The notes below the pieces were generated by a model. The model worked only from the letters and a program-made list of their open reading frames with translations, did not search any database and was not told the DNA's origin. From Aspergillus flavus (lineage: Eukaryota; Ascomycota; Eurotiomycetes; Eurotiales; Aspergillaceae), in assembly GCF_009017415.1 (NCBI RefSeq), contig NC_092404.1:2963501-3027500 (forward strand): DNA of 64,000 nt, read 5' to 3'. This document shows, piece after piece, positions 7,531 through 38,321 of the stretch. Position numbers and translations under genes: made by a program. Every line of letters begins with the position of its first letter. Position 1 is the first letter of the stretch.

Positions 7531-10270
7531 ATGGCGACCATGAAGCCTTCTCACCACGACTACACCGTTGCCTGGGTGTGCGCGTTGCCGCTGGAGATGA
7601 CAGCTGCGGAACTCATGCTCAAGGAGATTCATGACCCCCTTCCTCAACCTCCAACCGATCCTAACGCCTATACACTTGGCAAACTGGGGGAACACAATGT
7701 CGTTATCGCCTGCCTACCCTCAGGTGTTTATGGAATTACGTCCGCTGCAGCTGTCCTAGCTAAGATGCATTCAACATTCCCTTCCCTAAGATTTGCCTTG
7801 ATGGTGGGTATTGCAGGTGGTGTACCCAGCAGAAGCACCGATGTTCGTCTTGGGGATGTGGTAGTTAGCATACCATCCGGTACTTCAGGAGGTGTGGTGC
7901 AATATGATTTTGGAAAGACACTACCCGATGGACGCTTTCAACGCGCCAGCTCGCTCAACAAGCCCTCCCAATTATTACTCAACACCGTGTCCAAAGTGCG
8001 CAGCAAATATGCGATTACGGAGGCAGATATTGATGGGACTATTTCTCGTATACTGAACACAAATGAGAGGTTAAAACAACAATTCTCACGACCTCATAGA
8101 GACTGGCTTTTTAATGCAGAATACATACACGAAGGAAACCATCCTGATTGCTTGGAATGTGACCAGACCCAGTTAGTGAAACGAGCCTCCCGAGACTCTT
8201 CTGAGCCTCATATTCATTACGGTTTGATAGCGTCCGCAAATCAAGTTATGAAGGGCGCAAAAGCACGAGACTCTCTTGCCCAAGACTCAAATGTTCTCTG
8301 CTTCGAAATGGAGGCAGCTGGACTCATGGATCAGCTGTCTTGCTTGGTGATCAGAGGCATTTGTGACTACTGCGACTCCCATAAGAATAAAGAATGGCAG
8401 GGATACGCAGCGCTTGCCGCTGCTACTTATACTCGGCTCCTTCTAGCAGCTGTCCCATCTCAAGAAAATATTAGCCACAGAAATTACGCGTTAGCTCAAG
8501 TGAACGAAACGCTGATAAGAAGACAGATAGCTGCTCTGAGAAACCTTTATGTGTCACTCTATCAAGACCAAAAAAAACCGGAACCCTGATCGAACACCTG
8601 GAACGTGTGAATGGTTCATCTCACATCCGATTTTTCAAGACTGGGAATCAAGTCAAACATCACGACTGCTTTGGGTCTCTGCAAATCCTGGATGTGGCAA
8701 GTCTGTCCTTGCCAAATACCTCGCAGATTTCCTTCCCAAACTCGATGTGTCTCGAGCAGTTGGATATTTCTTTTTCAAAGATGACTATGAAGACCAAAAG
8801 AGTATCACAAATGCGTTATGCTGTATACTTCACCAACTCTTTGACAAGAAGCGTCACCTGCTGGATGATACCATACTTGAGCAATTTGAAATGAATGAAA
8901 GCGTCACCAGCTCATTCAGTGAGCTCTGGATTATTCTTCTCAAAGCTGCCAGCAAGGAAAATGCTGGGGAGATCGTTTTTCTTTTAGACGCCTTGGATGA
9001 ATGTGAACAACATGGAAGTTCCCAATTTATGGAGGCTTTGCGCAGGCTTTACACAGATGAGAGTCAACATAATTTCAACCTCAAATTCCTAATTACTAGT
9101 CGCCCCTATAGTCATATCCGACAGGGCTTTCAACCTCTTAACATACCTGGACAGCCTGCCATCCATCTTAGTGGAGAAAGCGATGTTGAAACGAAGAAGA
9201 TTTCTCAAGAGATTGATATTTTCATTGAAGTTAAGGTCAATGAGGTACACGATCGACTACAGCTCACAAATAATGAGCGCGACATGTTGCGTGAAAGCCT
9301 GACTCGTGTCACTCACAGGACATATCTCTGGGTCTACCTTACTTTGGAGGACTTGGTCCAAAATCAGGACTATATTGACGAGAAAAGAATAGCTGAGGTT
9401 ACTTCTAACCCCCCAAAGACAGTCGATGAGGCATATGAGCGAATCCTAGCAAGAAGTAAGGATCCTCAAAAAGCCAAGAGACTACTGTCTATTGTGGTTG
9501 GAGCGTTGCGGCCCTTAAGTCTCAAGGAAATGAATCTCGCGCTGAATCTAAGGAAGGGTCAACTTTCTTATGCCGACCTCACTCTCGAACCGGAAAACCG
9601 TTTTCATGAAGCGATCCGGTCTATATGTGGGCTCTTTATTATGATTGTTGATTCCAAAATTTATCTCCTCCACCAAACAGCAAGGGAATTTTTGGTCGCT
9701 CAGGAGGGGACAGTTGAAGATATTAATCGGCCATCTGGATGGAGACGTTCTCTTCGATTGCAAGACTCACACTGCCTTCTTGCCAATATCTGCATCCAAC
9801 ATCTGCTTTTCACTGATTTTGAGGAGACTCCGTTATCTGTAGCGGTCGGACCCAGTCGCGACCATTCTGTCTTTCTGGACTACTCTGCTACACATTGGAC
9901 AGCTCATCTATTGGAGTCAAAACTCCAACTAGAGGGCATGCTACCAGACCTTAATATAATTTGTGATGCAAGCACCACGCGCTGTCAAACCTGGCTTCAC
10001 ATTTATTGGGCTTCTTTAAACACAGAGTTCCCTACTGGTTTCACCACTCTGATGGTTACATCATATTTTGGGCTTACACCCGTCACCAAACATTGGATTA
10101 AAATCAACGGAATTGACTTTGACGCCAGGGATCATGTTTATGGACGGTCTGCGCTATCTTGGGCAGCAGGGAATGGCCATAGTGCTATTGTGAAGCTCCT
10201 GACCCAAAGGTCTTGGAAAAAGTTCCTACAAAGAAGGGCTCTTGTTGACTTCGCAGGTAAGGATGGGTGA
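7531..10270 (+). pseudogene. NLR (phosphorylase-NACHT), truncated and frameshifted copy 1
   Basis: Starts like the intact unit-2 copy: an N-terminal nucleoside phosphorylase (PNP_UDP_1) domain with VAWVCALPLEMTAAE, MVGIAGGVPS and [10 protein letters not shown], then a NACHT domain. Two lesions break it. An A-run at 8570-8577 has eight A instead of seven, so the phosphorylase frame ends after 352 aa at 8589 and NACHT lies in another frame. The 3' end is cut by the duplication junction inside the first ankyrin repeats, leaving a short foreign tail ending at 10270. It could still express a phosphorylase-only protein. The homopolymer indel may also be a sequencing error, but the 3' truncation would remain. 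Confidence 0.85.
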
Positions 10271-11164
10271 GTTTGGACCACCCCCTTGCGTGGAAATTCC
10301 CTTTGGAATGTGTGATGTGTTCTCTCGACGTGCTGAGAGAGGAAGAGGAAAGGGGGCTGAGGGTACTCTAGGTTTATTTGGATCTACGACAGTGGTGAAA
10401 CAATTCCGCAGTGAATGAGTAAGTATATCCATATGAGGTGGAACATGACCAGTATCGGACAATTTCCCATGCAGAGACTGACCCCCAAAAATAGACTGTG
10501 TACATACAATCAGAAGACTACTGCTATTGCTCCCAGTCATCATACTATCGACGTGTCATCAATAGAGAAGCACGAAGGCTGGCTGATATTCCCCTTCGTT
10601 CAGCATGCACCCACATTGCAATTACTACTGGCTTGCCCCTGACGAAGTCCAGTCTCGTGTTACCAACCCAAGGGACAAGGGAGGATTTTAAATGTAGCCG
10701 AACTGGAAAATATCCATGAGGAGACACGAAAGAGCGCAGTTGCCGCACGTCACCGTCATCCATGCGGGATCTTGATCTACGTTCTATGCCATTGCTTTTC
10801 TGCCCAGTGATGTCGTGGCTAAATCGAACTGTTTATAGAATAGGACTGGGGATCAACTTCCTACCAGATTCTAAAACCGGTTGACAGTTCCGGTTGAACG
10901 TCATAACGGACATGCATGCTTCAGGATGAGCCGCACGTAATATCGAGGAACGTGTACCAACATGTTCTCACACCATCGTGCGGATATCTTCAATATGTTC
11001 ATACTCATGGCCTTGCAAAACCTGCAGAGTGCCACACATCTATCTAGGTCAATATATACATCCCATGCGTGAAGGAGGAAGAAAGAAGGAAAACGAAATG
11101 GTATACAACACCCAAGTCTAATGCACCAAAATGGGAGGAACGTAGGATCAACGTGGAATCATCA

Positions 11165-12968
11165 TCACATATTATCCTCACTCCAATGACTCCTCACTTT
11201 CTTCCATGCGTCGTGCTCGCTTTTCCCCTGCTCAGCATTCAATCCGACCCCCAACCCCCGCTCCACCCATTGCTTGCTGCCCATCTCGGAGAGACGCGAG
11301 AGCGCTCGGGCAAATGCAAACCGTTCCTCGTCACCGCTGAAGATGGATGTGGACTTGAGAGCTTGCATGGATAGACCAAGGTCGTCCATCATCATGCGCA
11401 TTGCGTCGGAGAGATCGCTCCCTTCGCCATCCCCGAGAGAGCTCTTCATTTCCGCCTCGGAGAGGAAGAGGTTGGTCAAAGGCACTTCCGTGGTCAGGAC
11501 TAGTTTGGCCTGGAGGAGATTAGTCTAGTTCGTCTCCGTGTGGTGGGAGTGCTTACCCTGCTTTCATAGACGGCATCAATGAAAGTAATGAACCGACGAG
11601 CGAGATCTCGCTGATTCAAGGTCATCCCGGGCACGTCCGTGATGATAAAGGCGTCATAGTTCCGAACTAACTCCAGGTAGTCTGCAGCTCCTGTCGCTCG
11701 ACCGATCAGCTGCTGAAAGCTAAACTGAGCGGCTCTGCCGCTCGCCAGGGGAACCTCGATCTTGCGGCCCCAGACCTCCTGCGTTTCTGGATGGGGAGGA
11801 TCTTTAGGATCACCCAGGAACTCGAACCATTTCTGGGCGTGTTGGTCAGCATCCTGACCCAGTGGGTGGTGGTAGACGCCGGAAGGCGGCCGAGGGATTT
11901 TGCGGTAGTCTGTGGGGGAGTTCAAGTTGATCACGTCCAGAGCGGTTTTCAGCAGGTTGATGCACGGGATGAACGACTCCCGCTGGATGCCATTCTTGTA
12001 TAGATCGTCGGGGTGCCTGTTGGAAGTGGTGATGAGCACGACCCCATGGGACATGAGGGACTCCAGAAGCCTCCGCAGAATCATAGCATCCGCAACATCC
12101 GTACACTGGAACTCGTCGAAACACAACACACTCGATTTCTCGGCAATGGCCGCTGCTACCAAAGGCAACGCATCAAAATCATTGCCGTACTGCATTTTGA
12201 CCACATGCATGCGCTTATGGACATCTTGCATGAAATTGTGGAAATGAATACGAGACTTGGACACGATATTCGACGGCAAGGTCTCGTAGAACAAATCCAT
12301 GAGCATTGTTTTCCCACACCCGACATCTCCATACATATACAGGCCTTTCGGAAGGTTCTCAGGGATGATTAACTCTTCCTTTGCCTTGCCACGCCCGAAC
12401 AAAGAGCCCAGGAATGAAGTTTTCGGCTGAAGATCCAAGGATTCGGGATTCGGGTGGATGACGGCCGGAGGATGGTAGCCTCGTAGCCTTTCGTGTAAGT
12501 CCTGTAGCCTCCCAATTATCTCTGCGCGTGAATCCAATCATCAGCATTCACCATACCCCTTGGGGTTGACCGTAAATAGCGGAGAAGAGGGTAGGACGTA
12601 CGTCTCTGGTATGGGTCATCCCGTAGCCGACCCTGTTGCACTCGCGCATCATACTCTTTTAAAGGACCACCCTGTAGCTCAGCTGCAACATCCGACCTGG
12701 CCTCATTCGCTGCTGCTGTTGCGTACTGTCGCATATACTCATGACCCAGCCGTGGCCCACGGGTATTCAAGCCTTTGGTTATATGGATGATTGCCGGGCT
12801 TGGCGTCTGGGAACGGCTCACACTGGCATATGACCGTTGTACACTTCTTCTGCATTGTCTGGCATAGGCCGGCCTCGTGCCTCGAGGCAGTATTGACACC
12901 CTTCGAGACCCCAGCGTGGCTGGAATGTAGTCCACGCAGAGTCTCGCCGACGACCCGCTCACTGGCAT
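11165..12968 (-). CDS. AFG1: AFG1-like mitochondrial ATPase, copy 2
   Basis: Duplicate of the gene at 944-2747 with the same exon structure: 12968-12602, 12521-11557 and 11509-11165, 558 aa. Walker A, Walker B and the C-terminal family motif are unchanged, so both copies look functional. Its upstream region is also duplicated in full. Dosage of this mitochondrial quality-control ATPase would be doubled if the duplication is real. Confidence 0.9.
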
Positions 12969-15930
12969 CGATGCGGTGTGTAAGAGTAGCTTCAACTTTT
13001 GCTTTGCTTCCTTGCGGGTTCCTTCAACTTTCCCCTGACTAACCGAGTGTTCTTGCGTACTCGGATCCGCGCATGTACGGTGTGTATCGTTCGTCGCGCA
13101 ACAGGAATTGTCTTGAAGCCGAGGTTATTAATCGCGAATCGGAATGACGGAGGAAAATCACTGTTCGGCTGCGGGTGAAGGGTGGGGAACGTCTGGCAGA
13201 AGGTAGTCAGTCGTTCAACTCCATTGCATTTCCACATAAAAAGACCGGACAGGGTCAAGGTCGTAAGCTTACCAACTGTGAAGGGAACCGAGAAGCGTCT
13301 AAAACAACTTGTATGTATAGTGTATACTCCGTACTTACATCAAGTTCTGGAGCGAGTTATGGTCGGAAGAAGGTTTACCCTTTTCGACACCACCGCCTTC
13401 CGCTTCTAGTATTTAATGCCTTACGCCCAAGGCTTCATTATTTCCAGATATGGAAGCGTCAGCCACAACACTTGCACCGCCTCACAGCATGTTGCAGCCT
13501 TCGCCAACATGACTATAGAAAGCCTCGCAGGAGAAATCAGCTGTTGAAGGCCATTTATTTTGGTAGATATGATGGTTGAAAGGTATAATACAGCGAGAAA
13601 GCGTAGAGATTTCGACTCCGTACAACTTCGGACTGACTGACCTCGTCGCTTTGACCGACAAGGCTCATGAACTGGGAAGCTATAATGTAATGCTTGAAAT
13701 CAACTCGATGAATGATAGCTCAGCTTGTCGCTGCTCAAAACTCTCCGATCCGGTGCAGAACCTCAGGCGGATTTTGCGTTGATCAGGGAGTCCCAGCAGT
13801 TCCAGTGGCCTGCTGATAACATTGGGCAAATTCTTGTAACCACAAAGCAGCCTCATATGCTGTGGACTTTTTAATTTCTTGCTTAATGAAACCTTCCCCT
13901 CGTCGTGTTTGTCTGGCGATCATGCTCGCTTTGCTGGTAGCATTCAAATCATCGATTGATCTTGGTGTCCATGACATGGTTGGGTCTATGGTCACCCGTG
14001 AAAGACCTTGTACTCCCATACATCAGCTAATAACCCTGGACCACAGCGAGTATCTTCCTAATCGGCGTAGGTGTGGGCACGCTCTTCTCCAGACCTTCCC
14101 CGATCCCTTTGATTCAACCGTGTTCTACTTAATCGCCATTAACTTGTTCCATGGTTCGTCTTGGCTAAGACTGTGATGCCAAATCCCAGCACCATTATCA
14201 CATTCTGGTTCCGGAGCCTTGTCTGCAACCACAGGTGGTGGTGGCAGAAGGCATTATCGGCTACATTTGGGCTGCTATCCCCTTTCAATGTGCCCTTAGC
14301 CAACCTAGTTTCATACCGGGGCTCTCAAAGCTACGACATGTGCCGCTCCCTTCTTAATAATGGTGTGAGATTTCAGCCAAGCCGAAGAATTAATTTTCCT
14401 GCGGCCGGACATGGCAGTGGCCACTTTGGTAGGTAGTTTTGAGATGGCTAACTACCAATGTGGCAAGATTGGAGTCTTTCAGGTGAGTCTCAAAAGCTAA
14501 GGTTGCACTGTTGCTCCCTAACATCCTGTTTTGGAGACGCAACTTCTGGTCTGTTATTGACCTACGCACACGTGCGAGGTCTTATATCCGTAGTTCTAGT
14601 AGGCATACGTGATCTGATAAATGATAATCCCGTGGGGGTGTATTGTAAGCATGAACACCCAGTTTGGCTTCATTTTCTTTGCGATACGTTGAAGAGCGTC
14701 CTCGGAGACTTCCTATTCTAGAGGATAACAGGAAATATCTGGTGATTTTCCTAGGTTAAAAATAAATGATTCTTCGACCAGCTGATTCTACTACAAGCTG
14801 ATGTTGACATACACTAACTTCTATAAAATTCTCCAACAGGAGTTATACTTGACGGGAAATGCCTGGGTGCTGACCAAGTAAACCAAACAACAGGGTCAGG
14901 AAGCCCAGCTTCCACGCGGTCTTACGGCATATGTCTCTATTACTTGGTTTGCCCTAGTTGTGATTCCTTGATTAGGTGTGGGTTGGACAACTGCATGACA
15001 CTGTGACGCCGTGGACTCTCTTGAGATGTGCGAGAGTCAGATAGACGTAATGCAATGCAAGGCGTGGACATAACTAGTTATATACACTGGCACTTTTCCA
15101 AATACTTACAAGTAGCCATCAGGACTGATAAAGCTCAAGAATCCGGGAAGGAATAGATAATGTGTTCAAGTAGACTTCTTACGTTTTGTCGAGCTGCGAA
15201 ATGGGGAGATATCGTCTTCGTAGGTTATGATTCAACAGTACTTCGAATGCAGATGAGTCATGCATGTGTGCAGCATTACTACAGCCTCCAAATGACAAGC
15301 ACAGGAATTCACTGGAGCCCAATATCAATGGTCAATCACAGGCTCTGTGGTATTCGTGGCATACGTTCTACTTTACTAAAAAACCGGTCCATTGTCTAAC
15401 TTAATATAGGCAGTCTAACCGACCTCCTCTTGAAAACCCTCATGAGTCATGGCGCTCCCCCTATGCCGTAGTGATCGGCGGGGTAGTTATTGTGCGAGGC
15501 ACGCTGTGTAATTGATAAGCAGATGTAGAGGTGAGTCAGAAGATGAGCAAGAAGGTAACTAAGGAGTAGTTACCTTGGAAGCATAAGCAAGCACTATGGA
15601 GTTATGGACCAGTTACGGTCCTGCCTCTGCCCGTTTGGGGGCTTAGGGTGCACGTGACCTCATCCGTTCATTTTGATTGATGGGATATAGGCAGACGATC
15701 ACCTGACGCACAGCCATCTCTCTATCATCTTTCATTGTCAATCTGCCGTTATATATTCCGTACATTCTACTCGTATAGCTGTTACGTATCCAGTTGGGAG
15801 TGTATTCGTCGGTATCCAACAGTTCAGCCACAGACTCCAGTTGACGTGAACAAGCGCCACTGCCCGGTCTTCTACCACAATATATCCATTTCTCCTTCCT
15901 GCCAATCTTTACTCCTGCTCCAGCGGCATA
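12969..15930. other. Intergenic region, unit 2
   Basis: Duplicate of 2748-5709, including the CACGTG site near 15651. No gene could be supported in either copy. Confidence 0.4.
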
Positions 15931-16614
15931 ATGTCTGACACGCCTGAAGGTATTGTTGAATACGGCTACGACAATATTACAGAATGGTATCTGCAGTGGG
16001 TGAAGAGCCAGAAGTCACCACGAGAAAGATACACCAAGATGCTCCTAGACAAGCTGCAACCTTCACCCTCTATTCTAGAGCTTGGTTGCGGGCCCGGAGT
16101 TCCTATTCTAAGAATGCTTCTTGACCAAGGCGCTCAAGTGGTCGCCAATGATCTCTCATCCAAGCAGATCGAGTTAGCCAAGGCCCGTTGCCCGGAGGCC
16201 AAGCTGGTTACGGGCAGCATGACCACCCTCACTTTCGAGCCTATGAGCTTCCATGGTGTCATTAGCTTCTATGCACTGTTCCACCTTCCACGGTCGCAGC
16301 TCAAGGCCATGCTCACTACGATCTATGATTGGTTGAAGCCCGGGGGTGTCTTCGTCTTTAATCTTGCAACTGTCGATGAAGAAGAAATCCATGGCGAATT
16401 CCTAGGATATGGGATGTTCTGGAGCAGCTATAGTGTGGATCAGAACCGAGCAATGTTAACAGAAATCGGATTTGATATCTTACAGATGGAAGTATTGCAC
16501 GCAAATGATGGAACGTTGGAGGAGGGGGATCCGGACTATGATTCCGAGTTTATGTGGGTAATGGCACGAAAGAAAGAATCTCCCGACGGTCTAAGAAATG
16601 TACAAGCAGTGTGA
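15931..16614 (+). CDS. SAM-dependent methyltransferase, copy 2
   Basis: Duplicate of the gene at 5710-6393 with the same 227-aa product, including the glycine-rich SAM-binding loop ELGCGPG. Upstream and downstream flanks are duplicated too, so expression signals should be the same. No difference between the two ORFs was noticed. Confidence 0.88.
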   Translation: MSDTPEGIVEYGYDNITEWYLQWVKSQKSPRERYTKMLLDKLQPSPSILELGCGPGVPILRMLLDQGAQVVANDLSSKQIELAKARCPEAKLVTGSMTTLTFEPMSFHGVISFYALFHLPRSQLKAMLTTIYDWLKPGGVFVFNLATVDEEEIHGEFLGYGMFWSSYSVDQNRAMLTEIGFDILQMEVLHANDGTLEEGDPDYDSEFMWVMARKKESPDGLRNVQAV

Positions 16615-17751
16615 TGGCTTCTCTGTATCTGTTCTGTTCTATTCGCTTTAGTTGAGTTTGTTGTCACTGGTAGTTATCAGAACTACCAAAAGTCACCACG
16701 CACCACTACACATTCAAGAATGTGGAATTGATGGATATGTATCTATAATGGATTTGAATCCATGGGGGGAAAGGCGCAGGGAGTTCTCTGGTGGTTACAC
16801 TAGAAACTGAATATATTCCTATCCAAAGGTGCTCTAGCTCTTGTTCTCATCCTATTTCTCGCTCTCGTGGTCCCAACTAAAGGTTCAGTGGCTGAATAGT
16901 TCCAGCTAGTATTGCAGGAATCGTCGAATCGGACTGACTCTAACACACCACAGAATGCAGAAGTTTGACCAATTCTACCACTGAGTTGCCCATAAGGAAT
17001 AACTAATTCATGAATGTCAGAAGTCCTGACTGACCACACCACGCGAGATAACAGGGTTGGAATACAGAGGGGCTTCCTGGCAATACTATGTTCCCAAAGG
17101 ATTATCATACAATTACACTAAGCTAGATTATATATCTTAGGATATGGATGTGCAATGCCAGTTGATTATTGTCAGCAATATTGTTGGGAAACTTGCCTGT
17201 TATTGGGATATGTATCATGTACCCTGTACATCATGGATATCACCTTCAGACTAGCGCGTAGCCCTGCCACTTACCGCACACAACAATTGGTGGGACAGTC
17301 GGACTCTCGATTGTCGGAGCTATTATGCAAACTAGACCGAGAGCGGGGTACGGACTGAGGGAAGGATACTTGTCTTCACTTCATGGAAGGAACCTTGTGG
17401 AAGCTGTGTTGCAAGATGGTCATAGATGTATATTTAAAATCAATCCCATCATGTTCCAAATGACATTGTGGACAAGTGTTACTGACTAACGCTGAACTGA
17501 AAGGAGGCTTGGACTATGTTGAAGAATATGATTCGTCACATGGCCTAGTCAGTCAGCAGTGCCAGCTCATACCCAGACAGCCTCGTTTGCCTTCCCTGCT
17601 TTGCATTCAAAGGACCTGAAGCTCTGTGCTTATATTACCAAAAAATAAAATTTTGCATCTATTTTGTCCTTGAAAATCTTGTATTCTGTTATGAACTATC
17701 CTAGTATAAAGTTTCCCTGTTTGGTATAATCTGCGATGCCGTGGTTGGAAA
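16615..17751. other. Intergenic region, unit 2
   Basis: Duplicate of 6394-7530. It separates the methyltransferase from the intact NLR gene and should contain that gene's promoter. No other element could be supported. Confidence 0.4.
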
Positions 17752-20700
17752 ATGGCGACCATGAAGCCTTCTCACCACGACTACACCGTTGCCTGGGTGT
17801 GCGCGTTGCCGCTGGAGATGACAGCTGCGGAACTCATGCTCAAGGAGATTCATGACCCCCTTCCTCAACCTCCAACCGATCCTAACGCCTATACACTTGG
17901 CAAACTGGGGGAACACAATGTCGTTATCGCCTGCCTACCCTCAGGTGTTTATGGAATTACGTCCGCTGCAGCTGTCCTAGCTAAGATGCATTCAACATTC
18001 CCTTCCCTAAGATTTGCCTTGATGGTGGGTATTGCAGGTGGTGTACCCAGCAGAAGCACCGATGTTCGTCTTGGGGATGTGGTAGTTAGCATACCATCCG
18101 GTACTTCAGGAGGTGTGGTGCAATATGATTTTGGAAAGACACTACCCGATGGACGCTTTCAACGCGCCAGCTCGCTCAACAAGCCCTCCCAATTATTACT
18201 CAACACCGTGTCCAAAGTGCGCAGCAAATATGCGATTACGGAGGCAGATATTGATGGGACTATTTCTCGTATACTGAACACAAATGAGAGGTTAAAACAA
18301 CAATTCTCACGACCTCATAGAGACTGGCTTTTTAATGCAGAATACATACACGAAGGAAACCATCCTGATTGCTTGGAATGTGACCAGACCCAGTTAGTGA
18401 AACGAGCCTCCCGAGACTCTTCTGAGCCTCATATTCATTACGGTTTGATAGCGTCCGCAAATCAAGTTATGAAGGGCGCAAAAGCACGAGACTCTCTTGC
18501 CCAAGACTCAAATGTTCTCTGCTTCGAAATGGAGGCAGCTGGACTCATGGATCAGCTGTCTTGCTTGGTGATCAGAGGCATTTGTGACTACTGCGACTCC
18601 CATAAGAATAAAGAATGGCAGGGATACGCAGCGCTTGCCGCTGCTACTTATACTCGGCTCCTTCTAGCAGCTGTCCCATCTCAAGAAAATATTAGCCACA
18701 GAAATTACGCGTTAGCTCAAGTGAACGAAACGCTGATAAGAAGACAGATAGCTGCTCTGAGAAACCTTTATGTGTCACTCTATCAAGACCAAAAAAACCG
18801 GAACCCTGATCGAACACCTGGAACGTGTGAATGGTTCATCTCACATCCGATTTTTCAAGACTGGGAATCAAGTCAAACATCACGACTGCTTTGGGTCTCT
18901 GCAAATCCTGGATGTGGCAAGTCTGTCCTTGCCAAATACCTCGCAGATTTCCTTCCCAAACTCGATGTGTCTCGAGCAGTTGGATATTTCTTTTTCAAAG
19001 ATGACTATGAAGACCAAAAGAGTATCACAAATGCGTTATGCTGTATACTTCACCAACTCTTTGACAAGAAGCGTCACCTGCTGGATGATACCATACTTGA
19101 GCAATTTGAAATGAATGAAAGCGTCACCAGCTCATTCAGTGAGCTCTGGATTATTCTTCTCAAAGCTGCCAGCAAGGAAAATGCTGGGGAGATCGTTTTT
19201 CTTTTAGACGCCTTGGATGAATGTGAACAACATGGAAGTTCCCAATTTATGGAGGCTTTGCGCAGGCTTTACACAGATGAGAGTCAACATAATTTCAACC
19301 TCAAATTCCTAATTACTAGTCGCCCCTATAGTCATATCCGACAGGGCTTTCAACCTCTTAACATACCTGGACAGCCTGCCATCCATCTTAGTGGAGAAAG
19401 CGATGTTGAAACGAAGAAGATTTCTCAAGAGATTGATATTTTCATTGAAGTTAAGGTCAATGAGGTACACGATCGACTACAGCTCACAAATAATGAGCGC
19501 GACATGTTGCGTGAAAGCCTGACTCGTGTCACTCACAGGACATATCTCTGGGTCTACCTTACTTTGGAGGACTTGGTCCAAAATCAGGACTATATTGACG
19601 AGAAAAGAATAGCTGAGGTTACTTCTAACCCCCCAAAGACAGTCGATGAGGCATATGAGCGAATCCTAGCAAGAAGTAAGGATCCTCAAAAAGCCAAGAG
19701 ACTACTGTCTATTGTGGTTGGAGCGTTGCGGCCCTTAAGTCTCAAGGAAATGAATCTCGCGCTGAATCTAAGGAAGGGTCAACTTTCTTATGCCGACCTC
19801 ACTCTCGAACCGGAAAACCGTTTTCATGAAGCGATCCGGTCTATATGTGGGCTCTTTATTATGATTGTTGATTCCAAAATTTATCTCCTCCACCAAACAG
19901 CAAGGGAATTTTTGGTCGCTCAGGAGGGGACAGTTGAAGATATTAATCGGCCATCTGGATGGAGACGTTCTCTTCGATTGCAAGACTCACACTGCCTTCT
20001 TGCCAATATCTGCATCCAACATCTGCTTTTCACTGATTTTGAGGAGACTCCGTTATCTGTAGCGGTCGGACCCAGTCGCGACCATTCTGTCTTTCTGGAC
20101 TACTCTGCTACACATTGGACAGCTCATCTATTGGAGTCAAAACTCCAACTAGAGGGCATGCTACCAGACCTTAATATAATTTGTGATGCAAGCACCACGC
20201 GCTGTCAAACCTGGCTTCACATTTATTGGGCTTCTTTAAACACAGAGTTCCCTACTGGTTTCACCACTCTGATGGTTACATCATATTTTGGGCTTACACC
20301 CGTCACCAAACATTGGATTAAAATCAACGGAATTGACTTTGACGCCAGGGATCATGTTTATGGACGGTCTGCGCTATCTTGGGCAGCAGGGAATGGCCAT
20401 AGTGCTATTGTGAAGCTCCTGACCCAAAGGTCTTGGAAAAAGTTCCTACAAAGAAGGGCTCTTGTTGACTTCGCAGGTAAGCATAACCGGACTCCATTAT
20501 CGTGGGCAATCTTGAATGGTCATGAGGAAGCAGCTCGTGTACTGCTTAGGGCTGGATCTGACATTAATTTGGCTGATGACATTGGAGGGACACCGCTTTA
20601 CTATGCTATCTTAAGCGACCGTCGTCAATTATTAGAGCTTTTCACCAGAGAAAGAACTCTACTGGAGTCAAAAGATGATATACAAAAAAAGATACTACTT

Positions 20701-22510
20701 TCAGCAGTGAAGGAAGGACATGGACCGGTAGTGAGAATGCTGCTTGAACAAGGTGCCGACGTGGAGTCTAGGGATAATGAACATGATCGAACCCTACTCT
20801 CATGGGCATCTGGTAATGGTCACGTTGCAGTGGTTAAGGAATTGCTCGCGAAGAATGCCAATATGCAGTCCGAGGATTGCCAGTATGGTCGAACACCGCT
20901 CTCCTGGGCGGTTGAGAATATGCACTCAGCGGTGTTAGTACTCCTGCTTGATAAATCTGGTTTGGAGTCAATGGTACATATTCAAAAATTCCGGGACATA
21001 GTTGGAGCTATTATTACTCTTCAGGCTTCTGTCTCAGTTGATACACTTGCAAGGTTACTCGGTATACCTATGAGTGATATCCTTGATCAACTAAACTCAC
21101 TACAATCACTTCACCCAAGCCTTCATATGCCCACAGACCCTAACGCTCTCATTGAATTTTTACATTTACATTTCCGATACTTTCTCCTCCACACAACAAC
21201 AGCCCTTCGGGTAGAGAAGAAGGAAATGCACAAAATAATAGCCGACCGGTGTTTATACATCATGAGCAGTTTGCTGAAAGAGAATATTTGTGACTTACCA
21301 AGCAATGCAAGTGAGTTTGACGATATCAAGGACCAGACGATTGACCAATGCCTACCCAAACACTTGCAATACTCATGTTACCATTGGGCATATCATGTAG
21401 CGCAAAGCAATGGGCCTGTCAGTGACGAAGTAATAAGTTTTCTGGAACAGCATTTTCTTCATTGGCTGGAAGCAGTGAGTATAATGGGACGAATATATGA
21501 TGGCCTGGGTATCTTAAACTTTTTGACAAAGGTAAATTCTGCCCTAATCTAGTAAATTGCTATCCAGTCAAATAACAAATAGAATCTAGATGCCAGAGGT
21601 GAAACTCTCCGAATTCTTAAATGATGCGCGGCAATTCATCCTCAGAAACATGGCTTGCTCTGCCCCTCTACAGCTTTATTATTCTGGAATTACGTTTTCC
21701 GCTGGGGAGTCTATAACTGGAAGAAAGTTGAGAGATAAATCATGGAGCGCACAACTTCAGACCCTTAAGGGCCATTCGGGTATGGTCAACACTGTGGTCT
21801 TCTCTCCAGATAGTGAGATACTGGCCTCAGGCTCTGGTGATGGAACTATCCAGCTGTGGGATGCCAAGTCCGGAAAACAACTCCAGATCTTTGATAGCTG
21901 TTTGGGTTGGGTTAATACTATGGTCTTCTCTCCAGACAGTGAGGTACTGGTCTTAAGCTCCCTTAATAGAACTATCTGGCTGTGGGATATCAAGTCTAGA
22001 GAACAACTCCAGATCTCTAAGGGCTATTTAGATTATACTTATAATCTGGCCTTCTCTCTAGATAGTGAGATACTGGCCTCAGGCTCTGGTGATGGAACTA
22101 TACAGCTGTGGGATACCAAGTCCAGAGAACCACTCCAGACCCTTGACAGCTATTTAGAATGGGTCAATACTATGGCCTTCTCTTTAGACAGTAAGATTCT
22201 GGCCTTAGGCTCTGATGATAAAACTGTCCAGCTGTGGTGTACCAAGTCTAGAAAACAACTCCAGATACTCGAGGGCCATTTAGCTCGTGTTAATACTGTG
22301 GCCTTCTCTCCAGACAGTAAGATTCTGGCCTCAGGCTCTGGTGATAAAACTGTCCGGCTATGGTGTACTAAGTCTGGAAAACAACTGCAGATTCTTGAGG
22401 GCCATTTAGATTGGGTTAGAGCTGTGACCTTCTCTCCAGACGGTGAGATACTGGCCTCAGGCTCTGATGATAAAACTGTCCGACTATGGGATGCTAAGTT
22501 TAGGAAGTAA
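17752..22510 (+). CDS. Chimeric NLR: phosphorylase-NACHT-ankyrin-WD40
   Basis: Exons 17752-21531 and 21590-22510, 58-nt intron (GTAAAT..CTAG), 1,566 aa. Residues about 10-320 are a nucleoside phosphorylase domain, often the effector module of fungal NLRs. NACHT follows, with Walker A NPGCGKS near 385-391 and Walker B VFLLDALDEC about 100 residues later. About six ankyrin repeats are encoded at roughly 20330-20975. From about 20985 the frame enters a segment of the kind that follows NACHT in HET-E-like NACHT-WD40 proteins (FRDIVGAIITLQ, LHFRYFLLH, FLHWLEAVSIMGR). Across the intron comes FLNDARQFILRN, then six WD40 repeats of about 42 aa. Splicing in phase at 21531/21590 restores the usual order of that family. 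The protein thus seems to join an ankyrin NLR to the back half of a WD40 NLR. Presumed cytosolic heterokaryon-incompatibility or immune receptor. A TAA ends the frame inside the WD40 array. Confidence 0.85.
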
Positions 22511-24703: not shown

Positions 24704-26590
24704 ATGGCACCATCAACTGCGATGCCGACGGACTTGCATCGTGCTCCTGCGTGAGTTTTCTCCTTCTAGCTTGTGCCAGCGGAATTTCTTGCTACTCAAT
24801 CAAAGGTATGTACATACAGCAATGATGCGACAGTTCTAGTGCCTGCCTTGCATGCCCGGAAAGCGAAAGTGCGCTGTCTAATCTCACAACGCCGAGACCG
24901 ATGCGACCGATGTATCACGAACGATTTTGAGTGTGTTTTTGCTCAAACGAAGAGGGCTAGAGTGAGGACACAGCCGTATCCTCAGCGTCCGAGACCTAAG
25001 CCTAGGGCTGGCGAAGATGACAATCGACCGTCCGTGGATGAAGTGACATCAACTACAAATATAGCTAGTTCGTCACAGAATGAACCTAGTTCTGTACATC
25101 TGCCCCGGCGTTCAAACGGCCACAGAGCCATTTCTGTTGATAGCCAACCGCAGCTGTCGCAGAGGCAACAGCCAGTTATCACCAATGCAGTCCGTGCAAG
25201 GGTCATCGCGGCATTGGCCACGCTGAAAGGAAAGAGAGGCGCGCCGTTCAGCTTTGTCACATCGGGAGACAACCCCGCATTCAGTCTTGGACCCGGCGCG
25301 AATGATGGTCCTGCGCGTGATTCCGAGCCAGAATCTTTCGAGCATTCACAAGTGATACCCTATTCGCTCAAGCTTTCATGGCTCCTCCGTCCTTGAAACA
25401 CTGATGCTCATCGGGATATGAATGATAATGACCGTTGGCCCGCTGGCGTGGTCAAAATGCCCACCTACCTCTCGTCCATGACGCTTGGTCAGACCATTAA
25501 GGACCCGGTTCAGGGAGGCATGATCAGCCCATCGGCATCGAAAGCGCTGTTCGAATTCTTCATGATACACATGAATGCCAAATGGGAGTATATCCTTGAT
25601 CCTAAAGTCGACACACATGACGATGTTCAACGGCGAAGCTCCTTTCTGTTCGCCTCAATCCTCTTTTGCGCACCCAAATTAGCCAATTATATTGATGGAT
25701 GTATAGTCTCGGCGACAGATCCTTTCATACAGAGCAGACTTTGTAGTCTCGCTCGAAACCTGGCTATCAGAACTCTGGCGGAGGGTGACAGGTCCATCGA
25801 GACAATACAAGCATTTTATTTGCTGGTTTGCTGGAAGGATGCGGATGATGACGTCTCATATCTTCACAGTGGTTACGCCTTTCGTATTCTCCATGATTTG
25901 GACGTGGAGCAAAGTGATGGTGATGGGCGGCAGGTAGCGAGACGACGGAGAATATGGCTCGCATTATACCGGCAGGACAGATAACAAAGCCTGTTTTTCA
26001 TGCGAAGGCCATCGCTAGGTCAAAATGAAGATATCTCTGTACCTGGTGACCTAAATAGCTGGCTCAAAATGCAATATGTATTGCCATCGGACTTCGTTGC
26101 CTGCTGCAGCGCTGATTTGCGGCGTATCCAGTCAAAATTACGTGGTTTGGTTCAACGGGCCTCATCGATTATGCTACCGTGTCTTCTGGACCTCATGGCT
26201 ACGGAGTTGAGAGCATGGAGATCTAAGTGGAAAGATCACTTTGAGGGTAAAGACCGGCCACAATTGAATGATGACCCGTCTTTCAATCCGGGGTGGTACC
26301 ATCTCACTGTGCTGATAAATCTATGGGAGCACAGTGTCAGGCTTAATGTCGCATCCTCAATACTTCGGCAACACACTGATGGCCTCAGTGGCGTCATGCC
26401 TGGATTCTGGTCCCCCCCGGGCGATGTTCCCATGGACCTCGATCTGATGAGCATCCAACAGTCTATTCATTGGAACTAGGATCCTATCTCGACTACGTCG
26501 CGCTCACGTTCCAAAATGCCAGCAGTACAGTATTCAGAGCCAGCGAACGCTGGTGGAGTATGTCCCTTCCTCCCCTCAACCACCAAAGGT
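24704..26590 (+). pseudogene. Zn2Cys6 fungal transcription factor, broken
   Basis: ATG 24704 opens a 47-nt first exon. An 83-nt intron (24751-24833) joins it in phase to SSACLAC, the start of a Zn2Cys6 DNA-binding cluster that continues RKAKVRC..RCDRCITNDFECVF. The two halves are in different frames because of one extra C in the CCC at 24855-24857. The C-rich loop is followed by a basic linker and a fungal-specific regulatory region (MISPSASKALFEFF, LHSGYAFRILHDL, MRRPSLGQNEDISVPGD). In-frame stops occur at 25394 (TGA) and 25982 (TAA, where family proteins read DRQQSLFF), and the frame changes again near 26450 (LDYVALTFQNASS). The multiple lesions make it non-functional. Its position next to P5C dehydrogenase recalls pathway-specific regulators such as those of proline-use clusters. 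Confidence 0.8.
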
Positions 26591-26629
26591 CGATTTTAGG
26601 TAGGAACTAGTTCTAGCGTAAACTGGTTT

Positions 26630-28264
26630 CCAAGTTGTCTTACGAGCCTGGCTCAGATGAGAGGAAACTCTTGAAAGCTGCCCTCGCCGAGATGGAAAGC
26701 ACCGTCACCGAGATCCCGAGTATTATCAACGGGAAACGCATCCGCACTGGCCACAAGGGCAAACAAGTCAACCCCTGGGATCGATATGGCGCCCCCTTGG
26801 CTGAGTACCATCAAGTGGACCCGAAGACCATCAAGGCGAAGGCCATCCCAGGCGCCCTAGAGGCGAGAAAACATTGGGCCAACATGTCATTCAAGGACCG
26901 TTGTGCCATCTACAAAAAGGCTGCAAAACTTGTCGAGTCGCCCAAATACCAGTGGAAGCTGATGGCGGCATCCATGATCGGCCAAGGAAAGACGTGTGGG
27001 CAGGCGGAGGGCGACTGTATTGCGGAAGTCATCGATACTCTGAATTTCCATGTCTATTATTGCGCCCAACTTTATGACCAGCAACCCCCCAAGCAATTTG
27101 ACTCGTCATCGAGCCGGCTGGACTACAGACCCCTAGAAGGCTTTGTGCTCGCTATTTCACCCTTCAACTTTACCGCGTTGGGAGCACACATTGCTTTCAC
27201 TCCTGCTCTGTTAGGAAATGTCATCCTTTGGAAGCCCTCGCCCATGGCGGTCTTGTCGAACTACCTACTGTACCAAATAATGGAGGAAGCGGGTGTACCA
27301 ACAAGCGTTATCCAGTTTTTACCCGTCGAGGATCCCATTCGAGTCGTTGAGCCAGCCATCGCCAGTCCTCATTTCGCCGGTCTACATTATACCGGTTCTT
27401 CAGCTGTCTTGCGAGCACCCTGTACCCAGATTGGTACGAAAACAAACATTTACAAGAATTTCCCACGCATTGTCGGGGAGAGTGGCGGCAAGAACTTCCA
27501 TCTCATCCATGACTCCTGCAAGGATGATGTTGAACGGTTGGCGTCCGAAGCAGTTTGTTCGGCGTACAAGCAAACGGGACAAAGCACTGCACTTTTGACC
27601 CTGGAACTTGTCCCGAAAACCATATGGGAACAAGGTGATCCGAAAAGGCTCTCGTGCGAGAAGCGTCTAAGATGACACACGTCGATGATGTCAAACAGCT
27701 TCATCACCCGTTAGGCCCTATGATCTCAGAGGTCGCTTTTCAGCGATTTGAACAATTTGTCCAGCGCGCCCAGGAAGACGGTCATGAACTGATCTACGGC
27801 GGCAACACAAACGGCAGCAAGGGTTTCTTGGTCCAGCCTGCCATTTTGAAATGAAACCGACTGTCAAGGGTCTGGAGTCGGATTTAATGACCAAGGAGCT
27901 CTTTGGACCCCTCTTCGCCGTTCAGACATACAATGATGCATCACCAACTGACTTTGAGGACGTATGCGAGCTCATTGACAGCACCTCGGAGTATGCTTTG
28001 GCAGGTTCTGTCTTCGCCCGTGATAGGAGGGCTGTCAAAATTGCCGATGAGAAGCTGCGGGATTCGGTTGGAATGTTTTGCATCAACGACAAGAGTACCG
28101 GCGCCATCATCGGCGCGCATCCCTTTGGTGGAGCCAGGTCCAGCGGCACAAATGACAAGGCAAACTCGGTGAATGTTCTTCTTAGATTCTCGAGTATTCG
28201 TTGCGTTAAAGACACCTATGTCAGCAGCAGCAGTACCCTGAGTGCCTGCCATGTTCCAGAGTAG
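26630..28264 (+). pseudogene. Delta-1-pyrroline-5-carboxylate dehydrogenase, broken
   Basis: An aldehyde dehydrogenase of the P5CDH subfamily (P5C to glutamate, mitochondrial proline breakdown). The first frame, about 26635-27675, has IPSIINGKRIRTG, the NAD-fold ISPFNFTALG and WKPSP, and GESGGKNFH with the general-base Glu. Frame 3 resumes near 27660 (LGPMISEVAFQRFEQF), and a third frame from 27851 carries KELFGPLFAV and NDKSTGAIIGAHPFGGARSSGTNDK. There are thus at least two frameshifts. No upstream ATG is in frame, and the usual N-terminal residues are missing. The catalytic Cys motif GQKCSA is absent on the plus strand but present on the minus strand at 27571-27606, consistent with a small local inversion. 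Confidence 0.88.
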
Positions 28265-31460: not shown

Positions 31461-32406
31461 ATGGGAATTCACACTCAATTAACAATTGCCGTCATCGGCT
31501 GCGGTAAGGAATTTGCTATTATAGCCACCTTTTCAAGTACACAGACAGTATTAACGCCGTTGCGGAGCAGGAACGCTGGGAACTGCCATTGCTGCCGGTA
31601 TTCTCAGTCCAAAAGAAAGGACTGACCTCGAAGTCCACCATCTTACCGCCACTGTTGGAACCGAATCTTCAAAGCGGCGGGTTGAAAATGCCCTATCTCA
31701 ACATTCGTCACGACTCACGGTCCTTACCCAGGAAAGAAATGTCCGCGCAGTGTGGGAAGCTGATGTGGTATTGTTGGCTATGAATCCTGTCAAGAGAGCA
31801 GATGTCTTTGCCGCATCAGGATTCAGAGATGCTTTGCAAGGGAAACTAGTCCTCAGTATCATGGCAGGTATCACCACCAAAGCGTTGAATACCCTAGCCC
31901 TCGGTGAAAACTCTGCCCCAGACAATGAAAGCGCGCTTCAATGCGTGCATGCAATGCCCAATATGGCGGCCAAGATCCGAGAGGCTGTGACATTGTACAC
32001 TGCTGGCTCCGGCACAACCAAGGAGAATTTGGAGATTGCGTCCTGGGTCTTTAGTCAAGTTGGGGAGGCTCATAGAATCCCCGAAAGCTCTTTTGATATC
32101 TGTGCCGTTTCAGTTGGTTGTGCCGGCTCCCTGCTTCTCCTCGCGATCGATGGGCTACTGGATGCTGCCGTTGCGGAGGGTGTGAAGAGACCTGACGTGC
32201 AAAGCCTGGTGGTAAACAGTGCGATTGGGATGATGAAGCTGGTACCTGCTGGAGATCACCCTAGTGTTCTCCGAGAGAAGATTGCCTCTCCCGGAGGTTG
32301 CTCTATCCGAGCGCTCCTGGAGTTGGAAAAGTTGGGAGTTCGGGCGGCGTTCACGACCGCCATCATGGCGGCAGCGGAGAAATCTAAACACATGTCATTG
32401 TCTTGA
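31461..32406 (+). CDS. Pyrroline-5-carboxylate reductase A
   Basis: Exon 1 is 31461-31503 (MGIHTQLTIAVIGCG) and exon 2 is 31571-32406; the 67-nt intron (GTAAGG..GCAG) interrupts the glycine-rich loop in phase 1. The spliced product has 292 aa with the dinucleotide-binding motif IGCGTLGTAIAAGIL, LLAMNPVK, HAMPNMAAKIREAVTLYT and the C-terminal catalytic-domain motif LREKIASPGGCSIRALLELEK. P5C reductase converts pyrroline-5-carboxylate to proline with NAD(P)H. Without the intron the ORF seems to start late at 31750, so splicing is essential to recover the cofactor site. No lesion is visible. A paralogue lies 0.4 kb downstream. Confidence 0.9.
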
Positions 32407-32810
32407 AAGCTTGGTATTTGTTAGCTAGACCGAAATTGTATCTTGACTCCATCGGCAGAGCTAGTTTAGCTTTTTACGACAGCGCTCTAACCGGCTTTTA
32501 CCAAGCTCTAATCATGTAAGACCTCAAGGAATTGAGGTTGCACTGTGAATCCTGGCTACGTAGGTGACTTGCATCATATAAACTAGCCTCTGCATTCAAC
32601 TCATCCTCTAATACATAAAGTTTGAAACTATTTTATCGGCCTCGATTAGTGACGGAGGGTCTTCCGACTGCCGAGATTCTTTCAATGATATATAAAAGGA
32701 GCCAACCCACCCCAACCAATGTCAAACCCGACCTTATCCCATTCAAGCCTTTACCTCCATCTCATACCCCAATACCTTTTCCTTACCTGGCTTTTTCATA
32801 CTACTACACA
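32407..32810. promoter_or_regulatory. Promoter region of P5C reductase B
   Basis: Contains a good TATA element TATATAAAA at 32689-32697, about 115 bases before the ATG at 32811, followed by a pyrimidine-rich leader. No gene in this interval. Confidence 0.6.
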
Positions 32811-33753
32811 ATGTCAATCGTCCAAAAGCCTGTTCATCTGGCGTTTCTCGGCTGCGGTAAGCTGTCTCTGTTATTCCGTGCCCCGCCATTACTGGGGCTA
32901 GAATGGTGATTTGAAGATGGTTTTAGGCCATATCGGTAAAGCCCTACTTGGAGGTTTACTTCCATGTGCGGCGCAACCTGGCAGTCCTGTTTCCGAGATC
33001 ACTGTTGCTCTCAGGCGTAAAGAATCCGAAGCGCGGCTTCGAGACCTCTTCCACAGCAGTCTGGCTCCGGTGAACTTCATCTCCGGTCAAAATATCAATG
33101 CAGTGAAGAATGCAGACGCAGTTCTTTTTGCCTTTCCCCCGGAACAGGTACATGAAGTCCTTGGGGCAACCAAAATGCGGCAAGCCTTGAGAGGCAAAAT
33201 TATCATCAGCATTCTCGCGAGGACGCCTCGAGATGAACTCGAACGATTAATCGGAGGCAATGACAAGGCCGATGGTCTCGTGACGAATGACATCCGACTC
33301 GTTCGTGCAATGCCGACTATAGGAACCGAGGTCCACGAATCAGCGACTCTCATCGGCGATCTCAGTAGCCCTGTGGAGAAAGAGGCAATGGAATTGGCGA
33401 TGTGGATGTTCAATTTAGTCGGGAAGGTTTTCGAAGTCTCGCATGATTATTTTGACACCGCAACAGGTATGAGTGCATTTTGCAACGCGCTCACAACCGT
33501 GGCAATACAAACCATAACGCGAAAGGCTATTGCTGAGGGTATTCCAATGGAGAACGCCATTGCAATAGCCTCCCAATGCATTCGAGGAACGGTGAGCATG
33601 GTCTTGTCCGGAGCCAGTCCTCAGAAATTGGAGCATTCATTATCTGCACCGGGGAGCATAACCGAGCAGGCGATATTAGGACTCAGAGACAGTCAGCTGC
33701 TGGCTCTTCTTGAGTCTTCGCTCTCTGCGGCTATTACGAAGGCAAAAGGTTGA
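32811..33753 (+). CDS. Pyrroline-5-carboxylate reductase-like B
   Basis: Exons 32811-32856 and 32927-33753; the 70-nt intron (GTAAGC..TTTAG) sits at exactly the same place and phase as in reductase A, within LGCG|HIGKALLGG. The product is 290 aa. It shows the Rossmann loop GCGHIGKALLGG, VLFAFPPEQV, RAMPTIGTEVHESATL and a C-terminal SAPGSITEQAILGLRDSQ segment matching the SPGG..A motif of the family. It diverges considerably from A, so this is an old duplication, and the substrate may differ. Candidates are P5C or another cyclic imine. The gene is intact and next to A in the same direction. Confidence 0.88.
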
Positions 33754-36448: not shown

Positions 36449-38321
36449 ACGTAATCGGTAAGCGAACCGAACATGTAAGCGAACCGAACACCACCTGTCA
36501 TATAGAAATTTAAAATGATCAAAACACCATGAATTCTGACTTCTATATAAAAATGAGTAGTTCTATCGATTCGGGTAGTGTATAATTTTATAACCCTATA
36601 CACCACAGCCAGAACATCTAGATAGAGCGCGCCTAGAAGCCAATTTAGTAGACAGAGATCTATCTGCCTGTATAGCTTTATCTGCCTGATTTCGGCGCTC
36701 AATAAGAATTCGGGCTTCAGATACTAATATACCTTCTTCAAAAGTAATCTATTTAATAGAGCGCTTTCGCTTTTTAAGCTGCCTTTTGTAGGCGGCCTAA
36801 TATTACTCTAATTAATACTTTAATATTATTATATTATTTATAGCTTGTTCGGCACCTTTAATCAATTGATTTAAACTGGTTTTAATAGGCGAATCGGAAC
36901 TGTAAGATAAACTTTTAAGCAGCTTTTTAAGCGTAGATTCTAACTTCTTTAACTACTTAACTATATGAGGTGTTTTAGGCGCTGAGCTGCCCCGGCTGCT
37001 GGGTCTACTACCTGAAGGCGTAGGGGTCTTAAGCTGAACTGTTAGTTGAGAAAGAACACACTCAGGGCTTAAAAAAACTAAACCAGTAGCTCTAAAAGCA
37101 CTATAGATATTACTATCGGTAAAGACCTCTACGTGGGCCTAAGAATATGCCTCTAAGAAATCAAGTTTATCAATATGATTAAACCCACAGCGTATTTTAG
37201 ATTTAATCAGGCCTTTATACGAGCCTTTTAATGGCGAGAAAATGGCAACATCAAGCGGCTGAAGCTTATGAGAAGCGTGCGCAGGCATACAGATTGGTAT
37301 AATATTATTCTCTGAACAGATCTGATCAAATCGAGACGTTAGATGACTATCGTGGCCATCTAGAACAAGTAAACGGTATTTTCCCACAGATCGGCCGGTA
37401 GTATGAGGTATAAAATGATTCTGTAGCCAACGTAGGCCAATCTCATTGCTTGTCCAGCCATTAGGACTGATCTCGATCCTCCAATCAGAAGGAACCTTAT
37501 CATTCTCGTACCAGGCCTCCATATGCATCTTGCCTTTAAAAATAATGCAGGAAGGTAGAGCCCATCCATTAGAACTAATACATCCTATGGCAGTGGCCCA
37601 TTCCCGGTTCCCTGGCTGCAATAAAAATGGTTTTCCTGGCATATCAGACCTAGTAATAACTTTAACTGCAGCTATCAGGCCCATTGCAAACCCCGTCTTA
37701 TCAAAATTGTATATATCGCTTGAAGCTATGCCGTACTTCTGAATAGCCTCATTTACCTGCTCAAACCAAGCACCTAGAATCTTGGGATCCTCTACTTTAG
37801 CACGCTGATAGTTGTAGCGACGTGCAAAGCAGGCTTTGAGCTCAGGTGTACGCTTGGTAAAGTTGTATACCCATTTCTCCCCTACAGTAGTAGGGGGGGA
37901 GGTAGTATCACGCTTTGAAAGCAGGATATTGGCCATTTCTCGTACGTGTGCAGGCCGAGGAGGTGCTCCACGTTTATCTAGTGATAGGATCCATTCTTTA
38001 AGTGATTCCTCTTCACTAGAAGTCATTTTATGGCTATTTGCGCGTGTATCTGTTCGAAATGTATATCCCGATAGGCGTCTTTGAAGTGTTGTACGGGGTA
38101 TATTAAAAGCACGAGCTGCCGCACGAATATTGGTAATTTGATTTTTTTTAATAGCTGATATAGCTAATAAGACCCTGCCTTCCTGCTCCACCTGATATTT
38201 TGATGATTTAGGCATTTTTGGTGGTATGGCTGGTGGTTGAATAGCCTCAAAAGAACAGACGCGTAGAAAACGCGTACGTTGGCCCGCTCGCTTGCATGGC
38301 CCGCTCGCTTACCGATTACGT
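36449..38321 (-). mobile_element. Fot1/pogo-family DNA transposon
   Basis: A 1,873-bp element bounded by TA dinucleotides (36447-36448 and 38322-38323) and inverted ends. The left end starts ACGTAATCGGTAAGCGA and the right end is its reverse complement. Each TIR contains an internal 17-bp direct repeat of the type (G)TAAGCGAACCGAACAT on the left and GCAAGCGAGCGGGCCA on the right, so the two ends have diverged after the first 17 bases. Size, TA target and transposase family all fit Fot1/pogo elements of filamentous fungi. Confidence 0.85.
36830..38215 (-). pseudogene. Fot1/pogo transposase with nonsense codons
   Basis: Open from 38215 to a stop at 37139-37141 (358 aa): an N-terminal psq-type helix-turn-helix (NIRAAARAFNIPRTTLQRRL), a CENP-B-like domain and a DDE catalytic core with IYNFDKTGFAMG and LLVLDGHDSHLT. 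The same frame continues beyond the TAG with HVEVFTDSNIYSAFRATGL and LSQLTVQLKTPTPSGS, the normal C-terminal region, then meets another TAG near 36965. Family proteins have Gln at the first position (AYPQAR-like), so CAG-to-TAG is likely. Too damaged to be autonomous. Confidence 0.85.

Follow-up and report, generated by a model that had tools for sequence, protein, structure and literature searches.

Gene content of the locus

The window, the whole 64,000-nucleotide stretch of Aspergillus flavus DNA that was analysed, covers positions 2,963,501-3,027,500 of contig 7 and ends 57.5 kb from the end of that 3,085,000-base contig. It contains a gene for a P5C dehydrogenase, the parts of which are collected in Table 1. 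Both gene pieces scored above the cut-off of 23 bits for the Pfam Aldedh profile (PF00171), with 147.3 bits for the open reading frame 26635-27675 and 52.4 bits for the C-terminal piece, which places both in the ALDH superfamily. The best NCBIfam model for both pieces was TIGR01236 (L-glutamate gamma-semialdehyde/P5C dehydrogenase), at 338.6 and 147.2 bits, respectively. These values lie below the curated cut-off of 613.6, and the full-length Aspergillus minisclerotigenes protein P0003 (intact, 557 amino acids) was also found just under it at 591.3 bits. The closest full-length relatives (P0003-P0005, P0007 and P0008) are 554-557 amino acids long, and the second-best protein match of the gene product is an A. 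flavus-named protein that is 98% identical.

The gene resembles TIGR01236-type P5C dehydrogenases, including the solved relatives 4oe4 and 3v9j, in sequence family and in the length of its intact relatives, but unlike them the window copy is frameshifted and has no GQKCSA motif on the coding strand. The motif is present at the aligned site in both solved structures, and its cysteine is the ALDH nucleophile. The window copy is damaged in three ways, namely by a flip of the 36-bp segment 27571-27606 and by two frameshifts further downstream.

Table 1. Positions of the P5C dehydrogenase gene parts, the inverted repeat and a P5C reductase piece in the window.
Feature	Position	Strand	Basis
Exon 1 of the P5C dehydrogenase gene, MPAVQYSEPANAGG	26516..26557	+	P0002 begins with the same residues
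Putative intron, 77 bp, GT...AG	26558..26634	+	comparison with P0002
Exon 2, pre-inversion part; open frame, Aldedh domain	26635..27570	+	Pfam PF00171, TIGR01236
Left arm of the inverted repeat, ACAAG	27566..27570	+	sequence
Inverted 36-bp segment; minus strand encodes FQGQKCSALSRL, Cys codon 27589-27591	27571..27606	-	sequence and segment scan
Right arm of the inverted repeat, CTTGT	27607..27611	+	sequence
Post-inversion stretch; first frameshift ~27640-27650, then stop	27607..27675	+	same tail in P0001 and P0002
Middle enzyme piece in shifted frame, with stop; second frameshift ~27840-27851	27645..27854	+	
C-terminal piece, 133/137 residues as in P0003	27851..28264	+	
P5C reductase piece, 176/218 residues as in the reductase part of Aspergillus ambiguus P0121	31750..32406	+	

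Two P5C reductase-like pieces lie downstream of the dehydrogenase (31750-33753), and A. ambiguus P0121, together with other fungal proteins of ~ 800 amino acids, unites a dehydrogenase with a reductase domain in a single model. Upstream of the enzyme are three adjoining open frames (24773-26479), the first of which has, by eye, a cysteine-rich Zn2Cys6-like start, for which no Pfam match was found. These frames may all derive from a single regulator gene that is now broken. The early part of the window is occupied by a head-to-tail duplication of 10.2 kb (38-10261 and 10259-20481), the copies of which are 99.99% identical and differ by a single gap in an A run just after 8576 (8 vs 7). The gap breaks the first-copy frame of a long NACHT/ankyrin protein (7531-8589 and 8549-10270 vs 17752-21552), and the first copy also stops at the edge of the duplication. 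The duplication is either very recent or an assembly artefact.

A 36-bp segment is replaced by its own reverse complement

Across the active-site region the plus strand reads KQTGQSTALLTLELV. The 12 residues of the segment itself are QTGQSTALLTLE, without a cysteine, where relatives have GQKCSA, and the catalytic cysteine by which a P5C dehydrogenase is recognized is absent from the coding frame of the window copy. The reverse complement of the segment encodes the peptide given in Table 1, with both ends in frame with the neighbouring sequence. When compared with P0003, the minus-strand peptide matched 12 of 12 residues and the plus strand 3 of 12; there are 335 12-codon segments in the reading frame, and the other 334 gave at most 3/12 on the minus strand.

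All in-frame segments of 4-60 codons in the 346-residue open reading frame (n = 17,955) were scored by their gain in BLOSUM62 units against P0003 upon reversal. The top gain, 55 units, fell on 27571-27606, with a sole tie at 27568-27609, which is one codon longer on each side and differs inside the arms only. The best segment without overlap gained 16 and lies within the frameshifted tail. The alignment to P0003 is ungapped over the inverted segment, and the flanks are in frame and collinear. In the 37.7-Mb genome, the segment gave one forward match and no reverse match at up to three mismatches. Since it occurs only once, the segment was flipped in place rather than added as a copy, and insertion of an extra copy from elsewhere could be ruled out on the same count.

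The arms directly adjoin the segment and pair over exactly 5 bp. Owing to this complementarity, inversions of 36-46 bp (even lengths, same centre) give one and the same product, and the breakpoints can therefore be placed only to within the arms. Complementary runs of at least 5 at the same spacing were found at 2 of 1,593 gene positions (0.13%, the event itself included) and at 0.12% of 63,880 window positions.

The preliminary description of this DNA, made from the letters alone, had proposed an inversion at this site, and its letters and coordinates all hold. The missing motif, its restoration in frame by the reverse complement of exactly these 36 bp, the perfect 5-bp inverted repeat (the sixth pair fails) and the loss of the cysteine motif without closure of the frame were each reproduced.

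The three P5C dehydrogenase-like paralogues in the same genome (C4, C1 and C2) keep GQKCSA, and their DNA was compared with the segment directly. The C4 paralogue matched the reverse complement at 26/36 positions and the plus strand at the same site at 13/36, the C1 paralogue at 23/36 and 11/36, respectively, and the C2 paralogue matched the window plus strand in the antisense direction at 26/36. The best chance match in the opposite sense anywhere in the paralogue loci reached 18-20/36, so that the 26/36 values are clear while the 23/36 of C1 is weak by itself. No second close copy of the gene was found in the window's genome, the next P5C dehydrogenase-type protein matches being 41-51% identical.

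The segment thus shows a reverse complement in place, collinear flanks and inverted repeats at its boundaries, as judged from proteins and with the paralogue DNA in agreement. It is very probable that this is a true micro-inversion of the A. flavus lineage, in which the 36 bp were replaced by their own reverse complement with ACAAG/CTTGT as the microhomology. The pre-inversion DNA would be that indicated by the orthologue proteins and the distant paralogue DNA.

Orientation of the motif in relatives

Among the matches listed, 117 of 120 proteins carry GQ[KR]C[SA], the exceptions being P0001, P0002 and P0077, the last of which reads GQKCN. The A. minisclerotigenes P0003 and Aspergillus nomiae P0004 proteins, both full length, have the normal orientation, as has Aspergillus parasiticus P0072 (YKFQGQKCSAL). 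The A. parasiticus gene model is degenerate, with 40 of 224 conserved columns departing and the right arm skipped. Two A. flavus records, P0075 and P0140 (the latter from AF70), also have the normal orientation; they are A. minisclerotigenes-like around the motif and truncated or mis-modelled elsewhere. Because there is no second close copy in the window's genome, P0075 and P0140 represent another allele class or a locus that is missing here. Both the A. parasiticus and the A. flavus AF70 gene models pass over stretches of sequence, and the gene seems, from these protein sequences, to be damaged in several related records. The AF70 protein is A. minisclerotigenes-like near the motif, yet it has the SAYHVPE end and the shortened SMNVL stretch seen in A. 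parasiticus. The sequences hint at a mosaic ancestry of the gene in section Flavi.

Origin of the left arm and order of events

The base alignment comprised P0003-P0077 and P0140, with P0001 and P0002 entered as pre-flip fragments and the window as its N-terminal and C-terminal pieces; P0078-P0120 were not used. Conserved columns were taken from 69 outgroup rows. The section Flavi records P0003, P0004, P0072, P0075 and P0140 were left out of these rows, as were P0074 and P0076, which are apparently mis-modelled near the motif.

The window, P0001 and P0002 share ten residues that are found in neither P0003 nor P0004. Of these, A. parasiticus P0072 has four (D307, E319, C322 and K326) and is without the other six (positions 22, 48, 120, 276, 283 and 315). 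Position 326, whose codon makes up the last part of the left arm, is Glu in the outgroup rows (rounded frequency 1.00), and both A. parasiticus and the inverted records have Lys there. Since the Lys that completes the arm is common to the non-inverted A. parasiticus, the left arm is probably older than the flip, as seen in one degenerate model compared over the left arm only. At the right arm, P0003 has Ile where the window has Leu, so that this arm may not be ancestral. The changes at E319, C322 and K326 affect near-invariant sites, and because they too are found in the non-inverted A. parasiticus, some relaxation of selection probably preceded the flip.

Conserved columns departed at 8 of 147 in the N-terminal piece, as compared with 3 of 238 in P0003 (Fisher p ~ 0.025, for column sets that are not identical), and at 1 of 60 in the C-terminal piece. 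These counts bear on whether the inversion was the first inactivating hit, with the frameshifts following later. The flipped segment still spells functional sequence at 12 of 12 residues and only 1 of 60 C-terminal columns departs, which argues that the decay is young and would fit such an order. However, at a departure rate of 8/147, a segment of 12 codons would stay unchanged in about one case out of two (0.52, hand calculation), so that the preservation of the segment says little. In addition, the inverted records also have the first frameshift, so the order is not visible in them, and the three changes common to A. parasiticus probably place the relaxation before the flip. The inversion as the first hit is thus possible, but the less likely course.

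A more specific history, which is offered tentatively and is somewhat improbable, links the left arm to A. parasiticus. According to this scheme, the Glu-to-Lys change, seen in the non-inverted state in A. parasiticus, completed ACAAG and created the perfect repeat, after which the segment flipped, and the 307-326 haplotype was exchanged or co-inherited between the species. If this were true, the sharing of residues 307-326 with A. parasiticus, and not of residues farther upstream, would reflect haplotype exchange or co-inheritance.

Other records of the inverted state

When residues 300-346 were searched by themselves, 12 candidates were scored and two matches were obtained, P0001 and P0002, both of which carry the inverted peptide. 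P0002 is an A. flavus-named cluster of 14 members with a longest contig of 92 kb, while P0001 is a cluster of 15 members with a longest contig of 2.2 kb. The inverted state was read in the two representatives of these 29 members, and both contain KQTGQSTALLTLELVP together with the same frameshifted tail. In other places they differ from the window, for example at residues 156, 238 and 249, and also from one another.

These records weigh on whether an assembly, consensus or cloning error flipped the 36 bp in this record only. The neighbouring 10.2-kb tandem duplication, with its one homopolymer difference, means that the region could hold assembly problems. However, two other protein clusters carry the same flip and the same tail with other residues different, which makes an error of this kind very unlikely. 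It also runs against the available part of the report on the published A. flavus NRRL 3357 assembly, whose figures agree with this genome, according to which the assembly was corrected with Illumina reads at ~ 650x (PMC8496237).

Mechanism and consequence of the inversion

When the single strand was folded, the arms paired and a partial inner stem formed. An unusually stable stem was not found at the site, since 30 of 200 shuffles of the plus strand and 28 of 200 of the minus strand folded at least as well (z = -1.16 and -0.94, for the derived allele only). Given these shuffles, hairpin stability by itself is no argument, and a stable hairpin or cruciform as the driver of the event is not supported. 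No Rfam match was present in the window at gathering thresholds, and a structured RNA was rejected accordingly.

As far as a molecular route can be drawn from the product, template switching or break repair would account for it best, though a hairpin is also conceivable. A DNA end or nascent strand would anneal at the opposite arm, the segment would be copied in the wrong orientation, and synthesis would return at the other arm. This could take the form of two-step template switching, or a break within the segment could have undergone microhomology-mediated repair. The length of 36 bp keeps the frame, but the motif with the catalytic cysteine has gone. The gene is one of several related copies, and with selection on it probably relaxed, the change would have persisted. 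Judged on sequence, the enzyme activity of this copy is presumably lost and the fate of the change was presumably near-neutral. The loss was probably tolerated because three P5C dehydrogenase-like genes keep GQKCSA. The locus is best read as a one-off micro-inversion, through the microhomology of a short repeat, in a P5C dehydrogenase gene that is decaying and has three paralogues in which the motif is kept.

It is highly improbable that selection favoured the new peptide for a new function. In favour, the frame is open through the inverted segment, but the window, P0001 and P0002 all have it closing 22 codons further on, the flip removes the catalytic motif, and conserved sites near the inverted segment are changed. 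A reversible switch, in which the segment flips between its arms to turn the enzyme on and off, is scarcely credible: yeast coding spacer inversions are described in the available part of one report as reversible through successive events (PMC8604942), and both orientations occur among A. flavus-named records (P0002 vs P0075 and P0140), but the arms are only 5 bp, the gene also has two frameshifts, and the non-inverted A. flavus records are a different sequence class, truncated and A. minisclerotigenes-like around the motif.

Further flips were sought by scanning segments of 4-40 codons. None was found among 4,292 segments of the C-terminal piece, where the best gain was -6, or among 7,289 segments of 31750-32403, the P5C reductase piece, where it was 3; the scans did not extend to exon 1, to the middle piece in the shifted frame or to the second reductase-like piece.

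Comparison with known micro-inversions

A study of 59 microinversions between human and chimpanzee, 17-33 nt in length, describes in its available part inverted repeats of 3-75 nt on the flanks of every one; only a single inversion was placed in an exon, and no overlap with a coding segment was reported (PMC8755829). The same text proposes microhomology-mediated break-induced replication and sees difficulties in applying template switching where repeats are imperfect or very short (PMC8755829). The A. flavus event resembles this set, as there described, in being an in-place reverse complement with short boundary repeats, which are of 4-8 nt in about half of the set and of 5 here. Unlike these non-coding inversions, the A. 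flavus flip is 36 bp long, coding and frame-preserving, and it falls on a catalytic motif (PMC8755829).

Coding spacer inversions in Saccharomyces cerevisiae have been described in a set of ten events with arms of >9 bp and 2-5 substitutions, with up to two amino-acid replacements, or five in the REG2 event, which began from a 5-bp arm; this is taken from the accessible portion of the report (PMC8604942). On that portion, the two cases are alike in that a spacer between inverted repeats is flipped in fungal coding sequence and amino acids are replaced. They are unlike in that the A. flavus arms, at 5 bp, are shorter than the >9 bp of the yeast set, the spacer is 36 bp and 9 of 12 residues are changed (PMC8604942). 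By analogy, the A. flavus inversion may work like a yeast template-switch spacer inversion despite its 5-bp arms. Short-range template switching in great apes offers a further parallel, since a two-switch route can yield a local inversion; as presented in the accessible text, it was modelled on DNA alignments of close genomes, whereas the A. flavus case was built on proteins and paralogue DNA (PMC7954356).

The A. flavus case combines the short arms frequent in the human-chimpanzee set with the coding place of the yeast set. The kind of mutation is known and rare, and this is an unusually long coding example. A literature search on the unhyphenated spelling, with subscription papers outside its scope, found no paper with both Aspergillus and microinversion, and no title or abstract beginning naming the locus was found for A. 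flavus P5C dehydrogenase within the same limit on subscription papers.

Short inversions are easily taken for substitution clusters. The present flip is unusually easy to prove because a catalytic motif kept by nearly all of the relatives listed can be read on the wrong strand, while the unflipped state is seen in relatives. As a fungal coding example, it is longer than those of the yeast set; it also points to A. parasiticus for a candidate precursor state and provides a marker for tracing the sequence classes of the gene within A. flavus. The picture of proline catabolism is unchanged, since three other motif-bearing P5C dehydrogenase-like genes are present.

Mobile elements in the window

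Two elements were observed further downstream in the window. A DDE_1 transposase with a Tc5-type DNA-binding domain lies at 37139-38215, with A+T-rich DNA beyond it at 42-45 kb. At 56550-60548, a long minus-strand frame encodes endonuclease, reverse transcriptase and RNase H domains and belongs to a LINE-type element in a G+C-rich stretch.
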